This document shows positions 5,039 through 36,137 of a DNA stretch of 64,000 bases, piece by piece. The notes beneath the pieces are model-generated. The model was not told the origin of the DNA, did no database searches, and saw only the letters and a program-made list of their open reading frames with translations. This DNA comes from Jannaschia pohangensis (GTDB lineage: Bacteria > Pseudomonadota > Alphaproteobacteria > Rhodobacterales > Rhodobacteraceae): the NCBI RefSeq assembly GCF_900113875.1, contig NZ_FORA01000007.1, positions 1 to 64,000 of the forward strand, read 5' to 3'. The translations under genes were made by a program, and so were the position numbers. Numbering within the stretch: the stretch's first letter is position 1; every line of letters starts with the position of its first letter.

Positions 5039-6772
5039 ATGGCGAAGGCCCACACCGACAAGACCAACCTGCCCAGCCGTCACGTGACCGAAGGTCCGGA
5101 ACGCGCACCGCACCGGTCGTATTTCTATGCCATGGGCCTGGGCGATGACGAGATTCACCAGCCCTGGGTCGGGGTCGCCACCTGCTGGAACGAGGCCGCG
5201 CCCTGCAACATCGCGCTGAACCGCCAGGCGCAGGCCGTCAAGCTCGGCGTAAAGCAGGGCAACGGCACCCCCCGCGAATTCACCACGATCACCGTGACCG
5301 ACGGCATCGCCATGGGACATGAGGGGATGCGGTCGTCGCTGGCCTCGCGCGATGCGATTGCCGACACGGTCGAGCTGACGATGCGCGGGCATTGCTATGA
5401 TGCGCTGGTGGGGCTTGCGGGCTGTGACAAGTCGCTGCCGGGCATGATGATGGCGATGGTGCGGCTCAACACGCCGTCGGTCTTCATCTATGGCGGGTCG
5501 ATCCTGCCGGGGCGTCTGAACGGCAAGGACGTGACGGTGCAGGACGTCTTCGAAGCCGTGGGCCAGCATCAGGCCGGCAACATGTCGGACGCAGAGCTGG
5601 AAATCCTGGAGCGGGTCGCCTGTCCGTCCGCCGGGGCCTGCGGCGGTCAGTTCACGGCCAATACCATGGCCTGCGTCTCCGAGGCGATCGGCCTCGCGCT
5701 GCCCAATTCGTCCGGTGCCCCCGCTCCCTATGAAAGCCGCGACCAGTACTCCATCGCCTCGGGTCTGGCGGTGATGAACCTGCTGGAAAAGAACATCCGG
5801 GCCCGCGATGTCGTGACGCGAAAGTCGCTCGAGAATGCGGCCCGTGTCGTGGCCTGCACCGGCGGGTCGACCAACGCCGGTCTGCACCTGCCTGCCATCG
5901 CCCACGAGGCGGGGATCGAGTTCACGCTTCAGGACGTCTGCGACATCTTCCGCGACACGCCCTATTTTGTCGACCTGAAGCCCGGGGGGCAATACGTCGC
6001 CAAGGACCTCTATGAGGCGGGCGGCGTGCCAATCGTCATGAAGGAGCTGCGCAAGGCCGGTCTGATCCACGAGGATTGCATGACCGCCACCGGCAAGACC
6101 ATGGGCGAAGTCATCGACGAGACGCGGGGCGAGGCCGACGGCAAGGTGATCTATCCCGTCGAGACGCCGATCACCAAGACCGGCGGCGTTGTCGGCCTGA
6201 TCGGCAACCTGGCCCCCGAGGGTGCCATCGTGAAAGTGGCGGGCATGGAGGCGCAGCACCAGATCTTCACCGGCCCCGCCCGCTGTTTCGAGAGCGAGGA
6301 AGAGGCCTTCGCCGCCGTCAAGGCGCGCCAGTACAAGGAAGGCGAAGTGATCGTCATCCGCAATGAAGGCCCCGCGGGCGGCCCCGGCATGCGCGAGATG
6401 CTGGCCACCACCGCCGCCCTGTCGGGTCAGGGCATGGGCAAGAAGGTCGCGCTCATCACCGATGGCCGCTTTTCGGGGGCGACGCGCGGGTTCTGCGTCG
6501 GTCACGTCGGGCCGGAAGCGGCCCATGGCGGCCCGATCGCGCTGTTGCGGAATGGCGATGTCATCACGCTCAACGCCATCGAAGGCACGATCAGCGTCGC
6601 GCTCAGCGACGAAGAGCTGATGGAGCGGAAGGCCGAGTGGAAAGGGCCGAAGCCCACGATCTATGCCTCGGGCGCGCTGTGGAAATATGCGCAACTTGTC
6701 GGGTCTGCCAAATACGGCGCCTGCACCCATCCCGGCGCCGCCGCCGAGCAGCACATCTATATGGATCTCTGA
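5039..6772 (+). CDS. ilvD: Dihydroxy-acid dehydratase
   Basis: IlvD dehydrates 2,3-dihydroxy-3-methyl acids to 2-keto acids in valine, leucine and isoleucine synthesis. The 577 residues are close to the family norm. Expected signatures are present: [11 protein letters not shown] (Cys49, Cys56), GCDKSLPGM (Cys129) and [16 protein letters not shown] (Cys195, Cys201). Cys56, 129 and 201 are the likely iron-sulfur ligands by family analogy. The end [14 protein letters not shown] is typical. The ATG follows AAGGAAG. Two unknown genes follow at 6 and 17 bases, so a small operon is likely. ilvE lies elsewhere in this window. Confidence 0.96.
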
Positions 6773-6778
6773 CCGGCC

Positions 6779-7564
6779 ATGGCCGACCGCCGCCTTCCCG
6801 GGCTGATCGAAAGCCTCCAGTCCCGGCGCGCGCTGCGCCGCTGGCAGGAGGCCGTCGACGCCGGTGAGGGTCTTGATACGGTGACGCTCGCCCGGCTTGC
6901 GCCACGCCTGCGCGACATGGTCGGCCTGACGGGTCGCCTGGCCGAGGAAGCGGACCGTCGGTTGATCGGGCGGCAGATCGGGCAGGCCGGCATCGACCGT
7001 CCAGCGCAATGCGACTGGGCCTGGCGTCCGCGTCCCTGGGCCGCAGCGCTGACGCCCACGGCTGTGGCGGGCGCGGTTGGCGGAACGAAGCTGGCCGAGG
7101 GTGTCACGCTGTTCCACGATTGTCCGCTGGCCGAGATTTCGCTGCGCCAGTCCCGCGCGACGACCCCCAAGGCCAAGGCCCCGTTTCACCTGACGCTGGA
7201 TGCGCTCGGCTTCGAGGGGTCGTTCCTGTCCCTGGCGCTCGACTTGCCGGAAGAGGGGGCCACGGGCCTTCGTCCGTCGCATATCGTGGGCATCGACCTT
7301 CGCGTCTGGATGGAACATCCCGCCGAGATCTTTGTCCGGCTCAACATCAAGCAGGGACCGAACACCGAACAATTGGTGAGCGAGTTGCGGCCCGGTGACC
7401 GGCCCGACAGCCCGCTCAGCGCCGATTTCGACCTGGGGTTTCACGACATCAACCCGGCGAAGGTCGAAAAGGCCTGGATCGATCTGATCTTCGAGCGTCC
7501 CGAGATGAACCTGGTGCGGATCGACGATCTGACCCTGACGCGCCGCCCGCGCGCCGACATCTGA
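6779..7564 (+). CDS. Conserved hypothetical protein (DUF6478-like)
   Basis: The 261-residue protein has no signal peptide or membrane segment. The N-terminal third is Arg- and Ala-rich and helical; the rest looks beta-rich (FHLTLDALGFEGSFLSLALDL, FDLGFHDINPAKVEKAWIDLIF). It resembles an uncharacterised family I associate with roseobacters (DUF6478), from memory only. It starts 6 bases after ilvD and is probably cotranscribed with it. No function can be assigned. Confidence 0.7.
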   Translation: MADRRLPGLIESLQSRRALRRWQEAVDAGEGLDTVTLARLAPRLRDMVGLTGRLAEEADRRLIGRQIGQAGIDRPAQCDWAWRPRPWAAALTPTAVAGAVGGTKLAEGVTLFHDCPLAEISLRQSRATTPKAKAPFHLTLDALGFEGSFLSLALDLPEEGATGLRPSHIVGIDLRVWMEHPAEIFVRLNIKQGPNTEQLVSELRPGDRPDSPLSADFDLGFHDINPAKVEKAWIDLIFERPEMNLVRIDDLTLTRRPRADI

Positions 7565-7581
7565 GACCGAGGAACGAGACG

Positions 7582-7932
7582 ATGGCCTGGACCTTGCATC
7601 GCACCGAAATCACCGGCGGCCTGTATCGCGGTCTTCTCGTGGGAAGCGGCGCGCCGCCGGACCTTGAGATGGCGCTCGACGGACAGGTGATCGGGCCCAT
7701 GACTGCGGCGAAGCTTGATCACGGCTGGCAGATCGAAGGCGAGATGGGGACCGGCCCCTTGACTGACGGGTCGCGAACGGTCGTCGTGCGGACCGTGTCA
7801 GGCGACATTCTGGACAGTGTCACGATTGTCACCGGATTGTCCGCGCCCGAGGATCTGCGGGCCGAGCTGTCCGTGTTGCGGGCCGAAATATCCTTGCTAA
7901 AGGCCGCAATTCGCCGCCTGAATCGCACCTGA
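7582..7932 (+). CDS. Small conserved hypothetical protein
   Basis: The 116-residue protein begins with a probable small beta domain (residues 1-85) and ends in a Leu/Ala-rich amphipathic helix (LRAELSVLRAEISLLKAAIRRL) that could form a coiled coil. GAGGAACGAG precedes the ATG. It lies 17 bases after the preceding unknown gene, at the end of the ilvD unit. I do not recognise a family. Confidence 0.65.
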   Translation: MAWTLHRTEITGGLYRGLLVGSGAPPDLEMALDGQVIGPMTAAKLDHGWQIEGEMGTGPLTDGSRTVVVRTVSGDILDSVTIVTGLSAPEDLRAELSVLRAEISLLKAAIRRLNRT

Positions 7933-33537: not shown

Positions 33538-33805
33538 GGGGGTCGGTCGGGGCGGCGATGACTTTGGCCAGCGGCTGCGTCCTGTCGGCAACAAGCGGCC
33601 TCCGCGCGCCTTGTTTTGCGGGGGTTTGCGCGATGCACCAGCGGTACACCCCCTGTACACCCCCCGTACATACGATAGTGTGCCACGAGCGTTCGCCGGG
33701 GGCTCGCCCACGCAACAGCAGGCTGCTCTGTGTATCGGGGGCTGTGGCAGGTGCCGCCGCGAGGAATCGCGGGTGAAGCAGGCACTGTTTCGACGCCTCC
33801 CGCCG
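33538..33805. other. Intergenic region left of the RNA-repair cassette
   Basis: About 270 bases contain the 11-base repeats and a hairpin CCGCGA-GGAA-TCGCGG (33757-33772) downstream of the kinase gene that may aid termination; no T run follows. I see no gene or recombination site here. Confidence 0.4.
33644..33674. repeat. 11-base tandem repeats built on GTACACCCCC
   Basis: GTACACCCCCT (33644-33654), GTACACCCCCC (33655-33665) and a decayed third copy GTACATACG (33666-33674) follow each other exactly, so GTAC cores recur every 11 bases. They lie in the gap between the MFS gene and the RNA-repair cassette. This looks like an array of protein-binding sites on one DNA face, or a small slipped repeat. 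Confidence 0.55.
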
Positions 33806-34945
33806 TCACCGGGATACGACGGTTATTTTTTGCGCCTCCCACATCTCGGGTGGTTCGAGCTTCCGAACGAGATGATCAAGGACTGCATTAGGGACCGCGT
33901 CTGACCGGTTTCTGTTTTGCCGACGCAATTGGTCGGGACAGACTTCCAGGTAGACGATCTCGATCCACGCACCGTAGTCACGCAACAGCCGCAATACCTT
34001 CGACCTGTTTTGCCGTGTTACATTTGTGGCGTTCCAGACGAAATCGGTCCCGGCCCGCAGGTATTCTCTGGCCCTTTCATGGGCGGCCTGGATCACTTGG
34101 CCCTGGTTGTCAGTGGCTGATACACCCAGTTCATCACGGATCAGGTCCAGGCTGACGACAGGGTGATCCGGACGATGCCTGGATATCCATGTGTCTTTGC
34201 CAGCGCCGGGCAAGCCTGCCATCACTGTAACGCTGCATTTGAAGTCTTCATGCGCAGTGTAGTGAGGATCGCGATCATCAAGTTCTAAGAATGCGACGCG
34301 GCTTTCGTCGTTGGCGAAGGTGAACGGCGTGCTCAGACATCCGCCTTCCTGAAACGTCAGTCCGGCAAGGCTGACACTTTCCAGAATAGCCTGTTGATCG
34401 TGACACAGGCGGCCCAATGCGTCTGCTTTGGCATGGAGACACAGATGATCGGGTCTGCATCGCCAGGACGTTGCAATCGCCAGCCGTACCGGGTCAGGCC
34501 GCTCGATAAGCCAGAACGGCAGCTGATGATGCGCGATGATCCCGCACAGAGCTTCTCGCCATGCAAAAGGCGATCGCGCATGCCAAAGCAATTGTCGGGC
34601 AATGGACGCCCCGACCCGTGAATGACCACGGGACGAAATGCGTCCATTTCCCTCATGTAATGTCACTGAAGGTTTGCCGACATCATGCAGAACCGCCGCC
34701 CAGAACAGATAGCTCCGGTCATCGGGCGACAGGTTTTGCCAATCGGGGTCGGCGACCAGTGCTTCCACGACCATCCGGGTGTGGGTTCCCACATCGCCTT
34801 CCGCATGATGAATTGGGTCCTGCGGGCAAGTGTCCAGTGTCGTCAATTCAGGCCAAATCGGCCAGATCGCAGCCCAATCGACGGTCCAGTGTGGACCGAC
34901 TGGAACCAGCGACAGCAGGTCATCGTGCGCAATTGTGGGTTTCAT
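33806..34945 (-). CDS. HD-Pnk: HD phosphohydrolase fused to polynucleotide 5'-kinase (RNA end healing)
   Basis: The 379-residue protein has two halves. Residues ~35-200 form an HD domain: His55 in VGTHTRM, VLHDVGKP (His87-Asp88), His108, AHHQLP (His139-140), and Asp175. Residues ~238-379 form a P-loop kinase: GLPGAGKDT (244-252), SLDLIRDELG with probable base Asp267, and NVTRQNR with lid-like Arg311/314. This layout matches bacterial HD-Pnk proteins, where HD removes 2',3'-phosphate ends and the kinase phosphorylates 5'-OH ends. It begins five bases after the RNA ligase stop. The ATG at 34945 is preferred; ATGs at 34957 and 34960 are possible. GC content is visibly below that of the neighbours. 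Confidence 0.85.
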   Translation of the reverse strand: MKPTIAHDDLLSLVPVGPHWTVDWAAIWPIWPELTTLDTCPQDPIHHAEGDVGTHTRMVVEALVADPDWQNLSPDDRSYLFWAAVLHDVGKPSVTLHEGNGRISSRGHSRVGASIARQLLWHARSPFAWREALCGIIAHHQLPFWLIERPDPVRLAIATSWRCRPDHLCLHAKADALGRLCHDQQAILESVSLAGLTFQEGGCLSTPFTFANDESRVAFLELDDRDPHYTAHEDFKCSVTVMAGLPGAGKDTWISRHRPDHPVVSLDLIRDELGVSATDNQGQVIQAAHERAREYLRAGTDFVWNATNVTRQNRSKVLRLLRDYGAWIEIVYLEVCPDQLRRQNRNRSDAVPNAVLDHLVRKLEPPEMWEAQKITVVSR

Positions 34946-34949
34946 GGGC

Positions 34950-35762
34950 CTACGCATCATAGGCCCCTTGCACGCCGAGCACCGGGGCAAAGATATCGAC
35001 CCCGTCTGCCAGGATATTCGGCAAAATCGGGCGGTCATGCCAATGACCGTCAGCCGCTTCGATAGCTTGAAGGAAATCGGAACGAACGAACTTGAACCGC
35101 TCGAGCACGTGGTCCGCGTCTTCCTTTTTCAGATACAGCCCCTCGGCCAGGTCGCTATCCTCTGTCTGCTGATCGACCATGTCAGGACGGCTGCCGGATC
35201 GTTCTGTGGCTACCGCCAGGGCCTGCCGCCAATCCGCTGACTTATACGGTGTCGGGCGGGTCAACTCGCTCAGGTGTTCGACGGACAGAACTTCCCCTTC
35301 ATGCACCACGGGGACAGGCATGATCGGCAACCCGGTCAGCAAAGACCTCCGCGCGGCTGTGCTGAGGAATGCGGCGTTGTCCCGATCCAGCACGTCAAAT
35401 TCCATGAAGTAGTGAGGCAAGCGATCGTAGAAAACCGTGTGCTTGGCATACATCCATTCGCCATACATGACGAAACGATCGCCCAGAACAGGGTGCAAGA
35501 CATGAGCATGGGCCGCTGCCCAGGTCTTGAGCAGGGCAAAGTGACGCTCACGACCACCACCCGTCAGGTAATGCCCCCGGCTTTGCAAAAGCAGGTTGCC
35601 GTCCGGGTCAAAGGACAAAGCGGAATTGGCACCATCGAGCTTTTCCTCAAAAACCAGGCGTTCGCCTTTAAGATCCTTGATTGGTTTATCATCCGCCATA
35701 TCGCCCAATTGAAGGCGCGAACCTTCAACGTGCCGCGTGCGCGGGTATTTGTAGATATTCAT
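34950..35762 (-). CDS. ATP-dependent RNA ligase (Rnl-type)
   Basis: The 270-residue protein has nucleotidyltransferase motifs in order: motif I EEKLDGAN with the AMP-accepting Lys41, the motif III-like region YGEWMYAKHTVFY (100-112) then FMEFDVLD, motif IV EGLYLKKE (207-214), and motif V ERFKFVR with Lys224. It begins with KYPRTRHVEGSRLQ, typical of a family of short bacterial RNA ligases. It should join 3'-OH and 5'-phosphate ends, and it precedes the end-healing enzyme in a two-gene operon. The start is the ATG at 35762, one codon after a GTG. Confidence 0.88.
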   Translation of the reverse strand: MNIYKYPRTRHVEGSRLQLGDMADDKPIKDLKGERLVFEEKLDGANSALSFDPDGNLLLQSRGHYLTGGGRERHFALLKTWAAAHAHVLHPVLGDRFVMYGEWMYAKHTVFYDRLPHYFMEFDVLDRDNAAFLSTAARRSLLTGLPIMPVPVVHEGEVLSVEHLSELTRPTPYKSADWRQALAVATERSGSRPDMVDQQTEDSDLAEGLYLKKEDADHVLERFKFVRSDFLQAIEAADGHWHDRPILPNILADGVDIFAPVLGVQGAYDA

Positions 35763-35805
35763 CACTGTCTCACGATTTTATCGATTGATCACACAGAAAT
35801 GCCCG

Positions 35806-35840
35806 ACACAAATTGTCAGGGCGTTGATCGAGATTTGTGT
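35806..35840. promoter_or_regulatory. Inverted repeat upstream of the RNA-repair operon
   Basis: ACACAAAT (35806-35813) and ATTTGTGT (35833-35840) are exact inverted copies, 27 bases centre to centre, 44-78 bases before the RNA ligase ATG. A partial copy, ACACAGAAAT, lies at 35790-35799 nearer the gene. This is a candidate operator. I could not settle a -35/-10 pair; TAAAAT near 35773-35778 on the minus strand is one weak -10 option. Confidence 0.5.
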
Positions 35841-36137
35841 GCAACGATTACATCGGACTTCCGCGGGATCCGGGGTTGAAACAGGGTTCTGCGCCTAGCG
35901 TTGACTGGTTGGAAAATCAACAGAAGATCTTGAGATTGGGTTTTCCGGAGCAGCGTGTTCTCAATATACCCGGAGCCCGCTGCCCTTGCGACGCGCAACT
36001 GTCCGCTGGTCCGCTGTCAGCGTCGTCGCCAAGGCGAGCCGCAGCGCGCGGAACCGGGGGTGCACCAACCCCGCCTTTACCCGACGCCGCAACGGGTATA
36101 GGCGACGACCGCTTCCAACCCCTCAGGAGAAGATGAG
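35841..36137. other. Intergenic region between RNA-repair operon and asd
   Basis: About 300 bases hold the divergent promoters. The left part is AT-richer, with GTTGA...TCAAC around a Trp-less loop near 35901. The right part returns to high GC and ends with CAGGAGAAG, the asd ribosome binding site. Short open frames here look like noise. Confidence 0.4.

Follow-up and report, generated by a model that had tools for sequence, protein, structure and literature searches.

The HD-Pnk of Runella slithyformis, reportedly described by Munir and Shuman in 2017, is said to be often encoded together with a putative ATP-dependent ligase, and carries its HD and P-loop kinase domains in the same order as the protein studied here; we know of no leader described for it. 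In Deinococcus radiodurans, the operon DRB0100-DRB0099-DRB0098 has a ligase-family gene first and an HD-Pnk gene last on the same strand, and DRB0100 self-adenylates on Lys40, with no DNA or RNA ligation detected and no DNA ligation in the presence of its operon partners DRB0098 and DRB0099 (PMC1997131). Operons of the Pnkp1-Rnl-Hen1 type (PMC4411300) begin with Rnl and continue with a kinase-phosphatase. The RtcB2-PrfH operon (PMC9223846, PMC6514570) ties RNA repair to toxin damage of the translation machinery, in that it protects E. coli from colicin E3, a toxin that cuts 16S rRNA (PMC9223846). At the level of control, there are translational attenuators with leader uORFs, such as the erm leaders and the topAI uORF (PMC12121999), for which it is proposed that a ribosome on an upstream frame opens the downstream ribosome-binding site.

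The window (the whole stretch of DNA analysed here, 64,000 nucleotides of Jannaschia pohangensis) carries a two-gene unit that resembles each of these systems in part. It shares gene order, strand, overlapping genes and a related ligase with the Deinococcus operon, which differs in having a macro-domain-like middle gene, a distant 210-aa ligase and radiation induction. The order of the enzymes and the division of labour between them are those of the Pnkp1-Rnl-Hen1 type, although that type has a phosphatase other than an HD domain and a longer Rnl, for which the presumed activator is Hen1, which we did not find in the window's genome. The possible tie between RNA repair and damage to translation recalls RtcB2-PrfH, but RtcB joins 3'-P and 5'-OH ends directly without healing, and the enzymes are unrelated. 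The control that we propose is like that of the erm and topAI uORFs, except that those contain sense codons, whereas the AUG in the window meets a stop codon directly.

The enzyme pair of HD-Pnk and ligase is known, and the leader control element is apparently new; an earlier reading of the window made from the sequence alone (the sequence-only reading) had placed the under-described part in the two-gene system itself, where we place it in the upstream leader, which that reading had missed. We regard a mobile heal-and-seal RNA repair operon that would be controlled by a translated leader as the best explanation of the locus, and as a fairly probable one. The support for this reading consists of complete active sites, joint inheritance, a repeated RNA-repair neighbourhood and a structured leader in the window's group, and derives from sequence, fold and covariation. 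At the least, the pair is one more member of a known repair kit, with context evidence for work on RNA.

The ligase and HD-Pnk proteins

The two genes lie on the minus strand, as follows.

34950..35762, minus strand: ligase-fold protein of the ATP-dependent RNA ligase type (270 aa, Lys41, nucleotidyltransferase domain only)
33806..34945, minus strand: HD-Pnk, with an N-terminal HD phosphohydrolase and a C-terminal P-loop polynucleotide kinase domain (379 aa, Pfam HD and AAA_33)

According to the ORF listing and translations, the ligase gene runs from an ATG at 35762 to a stop codon at 34952-34950 and the HD-Pnk gene from an ATG at 34945 to a stop at 33806. The gap between them is 4 nt, not the five bases counted previously, and an alternative in-frame HD-Pnk ATG at 34957 would overlap the ligase stop.

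Profile searches matched both proteins to the expected families. The Pfam family RNA_ligase (PF09414) matches the ligase with an E-value of 1.8e-32; motif I reads EEKLDGAN and carries Lys41, and the other motifs were found as Ia (SRGH), III (YGEW...YFMEFDV), IV (EGLYLK) and V (RFKFVR). In an alignment of 39 homologues, Lys41, Asp43, Gly44, Glu102, Glu207, Gly208, Lys212 and Lys224 are invariant, so that the short RNA ligase with Lys41 and intact motifs IV and V recognised by the sequence-only reading is borne out by Pfam, motifs and alignment alike. The AlphaFold2 model (pLDDT 91) shows a nucleotidyltransferase domain without an added C-terminal domain, and its top Foldseek matches in the PDB are T4 Rnl2, Naegleria Rnl, an archaeal Rnl and the trypanosome REL1 (TbREL1), with E-values from 3.6e-8 to 2e-5; DNA ligases appear in the same list only at weaker E-values. 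In profile searches the ligase was claimed by no NCBIfam or PADLOC family, and the PADLOC defence models gave no ligase match, only weak matches to Cas3-HD and similar models.

The second protein matches Pfam HD (E 2.8e-8) and AAA_33 (E 6e-25). Both the HD metal-ligand set (H, H, HD, H, D) and the kinase set (the P-loop GLPGAGKD, SLDxxRxEL and a distal Arg) are invariant or nearly so among 36 HD-Pnk homologues, which confirms the fusion of an HD phosphohydrolase with a P-loop kinase that had been read from the sequence. The kinase half resembles Clostridium thermocellum Pnk (Foldseek TMt about 0.72-0.75) and mammalian PNKP, and the HD half resembles the HD domain of tRNA-processing nucleotidyltransferases. 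With its HD ligands and C-terminal P-loop kinase, the protein is an HD-Pnk in both of its domains, and phosphohydrolase and kinase activities are predicted for it; the active sites are not visibly incomplete in the predicted structures of either protein (the HD-Pnk model has a pLDDT of 96).

Full-length identity of the HD-Pnk to DRB0098 is 33%, and the ligase resembles DRB0100 (35% over 132 aa) and shows no resemblance to the other Deinococcus RNA ligase encoded nearby, which we take to be DRB0094. The sequence-only reading had cited a DRB0098/DRB0094 pair, but the operon partner of DRB0098 is DRB0100 (PMC1997131). Because DRB0100 self-adenylated with no detectable ligation, and the window ligase is without an extra C-terminal domain, the earlier statement that sealing by the ligase can follow should not be taken for granted, and we infer strand sealing by the short ligase from its homology. 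We think it unlikely, on the whole, that the protein does not seal by itself and instead adenylates another target or depends on some additional partner. Besides the behaviour of DRB0100, this alternative draws on the suggestion that bacterial Rnl requires the N-terminal part of Hen1 for activation (PMC4411300) and on the search of the window's own genome, in which Hen1 gave no match over the TIGR04074 cut-off; it has to be weighed against the match of the motifs to RNA ligases and the operon linkage with a healing enzyme in 75 of 80 loci. What stands of the heal-and-seal operon of the sequence-only reading is the pairing of a ligase with an HD-kinase fusion, the motifs, the operon and RNA repair as the best reading, and what does not is the certainty of sealing.

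Distribution and acquisition of the two-gene unit

Scanned by pattern, 84,980 genomes yielded 570 stretches that encode ligase relatives, and the best 80 of these were analysed. HD-Pnk lies downstream of the ligase on the same strand in 75 of these 80 best loci, usually a few to about 130 nt away, and this synteny bears out the operon. Among the loci with no downstream HD-Pnk are some at contig ends, two Labrys genomes in which the ligase stands alone, a unit interrupted by an apparent insertion-sequence gene (L042) and two decayed units (L029 and L033). The relatives of the unit span many phyla and also occur on plasmids and phage contigs. Tree distances of the two proteins agree (Mantel rho 0.73, 57 pairs, 0 of 999 permutations; rho 0.89 within the nearest 26), with four well-supported splits conflicting between the ligase and HD-Pnk trees. 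On phage contigs the same ligase family is paired either with HD-Pnk or with a T4-type Pnkp (kinase-phosphatase), an exchange that is expected if HD-Pnk is one interchangeable healing module.

In eleven non-alphaproteobacterial units (L057, L059, L062-L064, L066, L070, L075, L078, L081 and L093), the ligase gene is directly preceded, on the same strand, by a gene for a SAM methyltransferase of about 210-220 aa with an EVLEH motif, which lies some 620-670 nt before the ligase. The methyltransferase has matches to general methyltransferase models and, in one of three cases tested, a weak one to the Hen1 model; it may serve these units as a third, Hen1-like component. Decayed units, in which HD-Pnk is frameshifted or deleted or the ligase truncated, were seen in L029, L033/L103, L145, L010, L012, L149 and L042, and in L029 and L033 the broken HD-Pnk lies beside RtcB.

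Within its family the unit is patchy, being present in 11 of 296 genomes, in several of them broken, and in 2 of 20 genomes of the genus. The genus comparison places it in a variable segment:

33540..36080, no strand: variable segment between an MFS gene and asd, carrying the unit

In the closest genus member examined, whose asd is 95% identical, the site is empty and the spacing from the MFS gene to asd is about 118 bp, compared with 2.6 kb here. GC3 is 0.65 and 0.60 in the two genes against 0.81-0.89 in six neighbouring genes, and their GC is 0.57 against 0.654 for the window, so that the visibly lower GC noted before is confirmed. When alphaproteobacterial loci are compared in pairs, only 34 of 990 have a flanking gene in common. 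The unit is mobile and was recently acquired in this genome; GC3, the empty site and the rarely shared flanks agree in this with the sequence-only reading. Its boundary repeats did not survive, in that no repeat pair flanks the unit. Repeats as mobile-element ends were accordingly discarded, the sole notable repeat being one-sided and one of 17 dispersed copies. This is the motif GTACACCCCCTGTACACCCCCCGTACA at 33643-33672, found in 17 genome copies at up to 3 mismatches (0 in the reversed control), the contexts of which show no clear pattern. An integron cassette was also rejected on inspection, since the leader lies 5' of the gene, without the GTTRRRY/RYYYAAC boxes of an attC site, and the window contains no tRNA that could have been an insertion target.

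Elsewhere in the genus the interval from the MFS gene to asd carries other cargo, namely TetR/SnoaL-like genes (G314), a small acidic repeat protein (G300), a permease (G305) or several genes (G301). At L019 an ORF like a phage-type integrase (6068-7600) lies directly upstream of the unit, with Hen1 nearby on the opposite strand, which suggests an integrative element.

The leader upstream of the ligase gene

The elements recognised upstream of the ligase gene, the helices being taken from the leader alignment and its covariation, are the following.

35892..35920, minus strand: predicted sigma70-like promoter TTGATT-N17-TAGGCG (TTGA-N17-TA shared by 19 of 24 group members)
35763..35886, minus strand: structured 5' leader RNA that reaches to the ligase start codon and is retained in 23 related loci
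35877..35884, minus strand: P1 helix, 5' strand CUGUUUCA
35845..35855, minus strand: P2 helix, 5' strand, taking in the uORF start codon
35848..35853, minus strand: putative start-stop minimal uORF ATG-TAA, with a weak Shine-Dalgarno-like GGAAG 4 nt before it
35802..35820, minus strand: P4 inner hairpin, with the clearest covariation (loop-closing pair A-U in 12, C-G in 8, G-C in 2)
35773..35783, minus strand: P2 helix, 3' strand, immediately followed by that of P1
35765..35772, minus strand: P1 helix, 3' strand UGAGACAG, over the ligase ribosome-binding region

Upstream of the ligase, the 23 related loci can be aligned for about 124 nt, and they share a fold with a closing helix P1, helices P2 and P3 and the inner hairpin P4, in which 34 pairs are 89.5% formed. 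Changes on both sides occur in 15 of the 34 pairs, as opposed to 8.4 +/- 1.8 in shuffles (0 of 500 reaching 15) and no more than 6 in slid controls, where the slid control flatters somewhat because the structure was derived from the tested sequences, and the shuffle control ignores relatedness. The transcript start predicted from the TTGA-N17-TA promoter coincides with the 5' strand of P1, and the 3' strand of P1 lies just before the ligase start codon, where the ribosome-binding site must lie. A sigma54 promoter, which RtcR control of the window operon would call for, gave no match by eye, and the sigma70-like promoter fits better.

That the structured leader is real in the window's group is, to our mind, very probable. 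A covariance model found it in 4 of 292 family genomes, once each and always at the unit, and a comparison with 4227 Rfam covariance models gave no match up to E 10. These single occurrences speak against an opposite-strand gene or a mobile repeat as the source of the conserved sequence. An antisense frame does read ...DYIGLPWGSG... in many loci; however, stop codons interrupt it in the window and in some 17 further loci, and its Tyr position reads TAC in 41 of 43 leaders, CAC in the remaining two and the synonymous TAT in none, so we consider this origin very improbable. Beyond the window's group there is little consensus support for the fold, and the pairing statistics are weak for each unit taken by itself. 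Since the model of the window's leader group did not find divergent leaders above chance, the leader claim across divergent alphaproteobacteria rests on the hexamer formed by the AUG and the stop codon, and not on one fold.

In the alphaproteobacterial units an AUG-stop is present at most 150 nt from the ligase in 40 of 44 cases, compared with 3.9 expected from shuffles, and mostly 87-140 nt before it; the four exceptions are L042, L050, the pseudogene-like unit L071, and L052, which has an unaligned ligase start. The codon after the AUG is TAA in 34, TAG in 7 and TGA in 2 leaders. On the ligase tree we count 8 stop-codon changes, each from one stop codon to another and never to sense, next to positions most of which vary. 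In distant alphaproteobacterial leaders, which align poorly with the window's group, the hexamer and a GAGA before the ligase start are the only long invariant runs. Among loci collected across the order, only L140 and L145 were new and readable; they are non-duplicate loci found after the pattern was defined, and both carry the AUG-stop. A class-wide search gave no new readable leader of the AUG-stop type (two loci repeat L026 and L042, and one distant unit is without the hexamer). Units outside the Alphaproteobacteria mostly lack the hexamer, and start-stop control is therefore not part of the core system.

The conservation of a stop codon, in any of its three forms, directly after an AUG suggests a translated start-stop uORF, and on the sequences at hand we find this probable. 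The same hexamer could be an untranslated binding motif within a structured cis element, AUGUAR being bound, for example, by the ligase or HD-Pnk in autoregulation, given that a covarying fold and an invariant hexamer alone do not prove translation and that the Shine-Dalgarno support is weak in the window's group, where the GGAAG before the AUG-stop is no better than in shuffled sequence. Such a motif would hardly account for the exclusive use of TAA, TAG and TGA through 8 changes, for the strong Shine-Dalgarno sequence (e.g., AAGGAGG) that precedes the AUG-stop in 7 of 43 leaders (L035, L046, L048, L049, L054, L065 and L086), or for the longer uORFs in sister RNA-repair operons, and we judge it an unlikely reading. 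Of the features of a translational attenuator, the window's group has the structure and the conserved start-stop, with a weak Shine-Dalgarno sequence. In the literature that we searched, the coverage of which omits many journals, start-stop uORFs are described in eukaryotes only (PMC5972666).

Substrate and proposed control of the operon

The genes found near the unit in its relatives bear on the nature of its substrate. RtcB lies within 8 kb of the unit in seven loci (L015, L017, L028, L029, L030, L033 and L053), in six of them together with the release factor PrfH; RtcR is also near the unit in L015, L029 and L030, and Hen1 in L033 and L019. These families were confirmed by profile (RtcB PF01139, PrfH TIGR03072, RtcR NF038308, Hen1 TIGR04074). 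In the trees both window proteins have their nearest relative in L015, and the window's genome itself carries RtcB-PrfH as an operon on contig 6 and RtcB with RtcR as a pair on contig 11. Because of the RtcB/PrfH neighbours in seven relatives and the phage exchange for T4-type Pnkp, RNA is likelier than DNA as the substrate, and an RNA heal-and-seal role of the operon is, from homology, a likely one.

A role in the repair of DNA ends, with 3'-phosphate and 5'-OH breaks as proposed for Deinococcus, seems to us rather improbable. It would agree with the radiation induction of DRB0098-0100 and the phosphorylation of DNA 5'-OH ends by DRB0098 (PMC1997131), and the title of Schmier and Shuman (2018) says that, in D. 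radiodurans, resistance to ionizing radiation and to mitomycin C is abetted by HD-Pnk. On the other hand, the ligase fold is closest to RNA ligases, the neighbours of the unit in relatives are RtcB-PrfH, RtcR and Hen1, with no recurring DNA-repair gene recognised among the listed neighbour clusters, phages exchange HD-Pnk for T4-type Pnkp, and the leader suggests a translation-linked signal.

If RNA is the substrate, the HD domain would clear the 3' end of a broken RNA of its 2',3'-cyclic or terminal phosphate, phosphorylation of the 5'-OH end would fall to the kinase domain, and the Lys41 ligase would self-adenylate and then join the healed ends. In the leader, P1 and P2 would pair the ligase ribosome-binding site with the surroundings of the start-stop uORF and so keep the site closed, and a ribosome held on the AUG-stop would open the leader, allowing ligase and HD-Pnk to be made as in erm-type attenuators. 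Whether occupancy of the start-stop activates the repair genes, as this analogy suggests, or represses them, we regard as evenly balanced.

A start-stop frame can be read with no elongator tRNA, its needs being initiator tRNA, a release factor and a decoding centre that is intact. It could thus report trouble at the ribosome or in termination at a time when tRNA or rRNA is being cut by toxins or anticodon nucleases. We tentatively suggest, as a possibility somewhat short of probable, that Alphaproteobacteria sense damage to the translation machinery through ribosomes held on the start-stop uORF and in this way switch on an RNA repair operon. If this is true, a bacterial regulatory element would have a reading frame in which the start is followed by no sense codon, and the trigger of a leader whose sole frame is start-stop would be directly testable through initiator tRNA, the decoding centre and release factors. 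If the uORF is real, the ribosome itself would be the damage sensor for bacterial RNA repair, and ribosome-sensed control of RNA repair would be a common theme, since RtcB-PrfH operons have short uORFs of their own.

These are uORFs of 13-14 codons with a Shine-Dalgarno sequence, located before rtcB in the RtcB-PrfH operons of L015, L017, L028, L030, L033 and L053 and of the window's own genome, and they probably encode leader peptides. Examples are MLIRQFALSGPINT and MPAHCFTLSGPINA, each followed by a stop codon, and, in the window's genome (L101:7124-7273, contig 6), MTVHQILSSAGRS, which ends in the same way. In the islands L028-L030, L033 and L053 a BCS1-like AAA ATPase, which is not a partner of the RtcB-PrfH operon that we know of, follows RtcB-PrfH. 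The island nearest to the window's unit has a reverse transcriptase-like ORF between rtcR and rtcB (L015:2871-4295).
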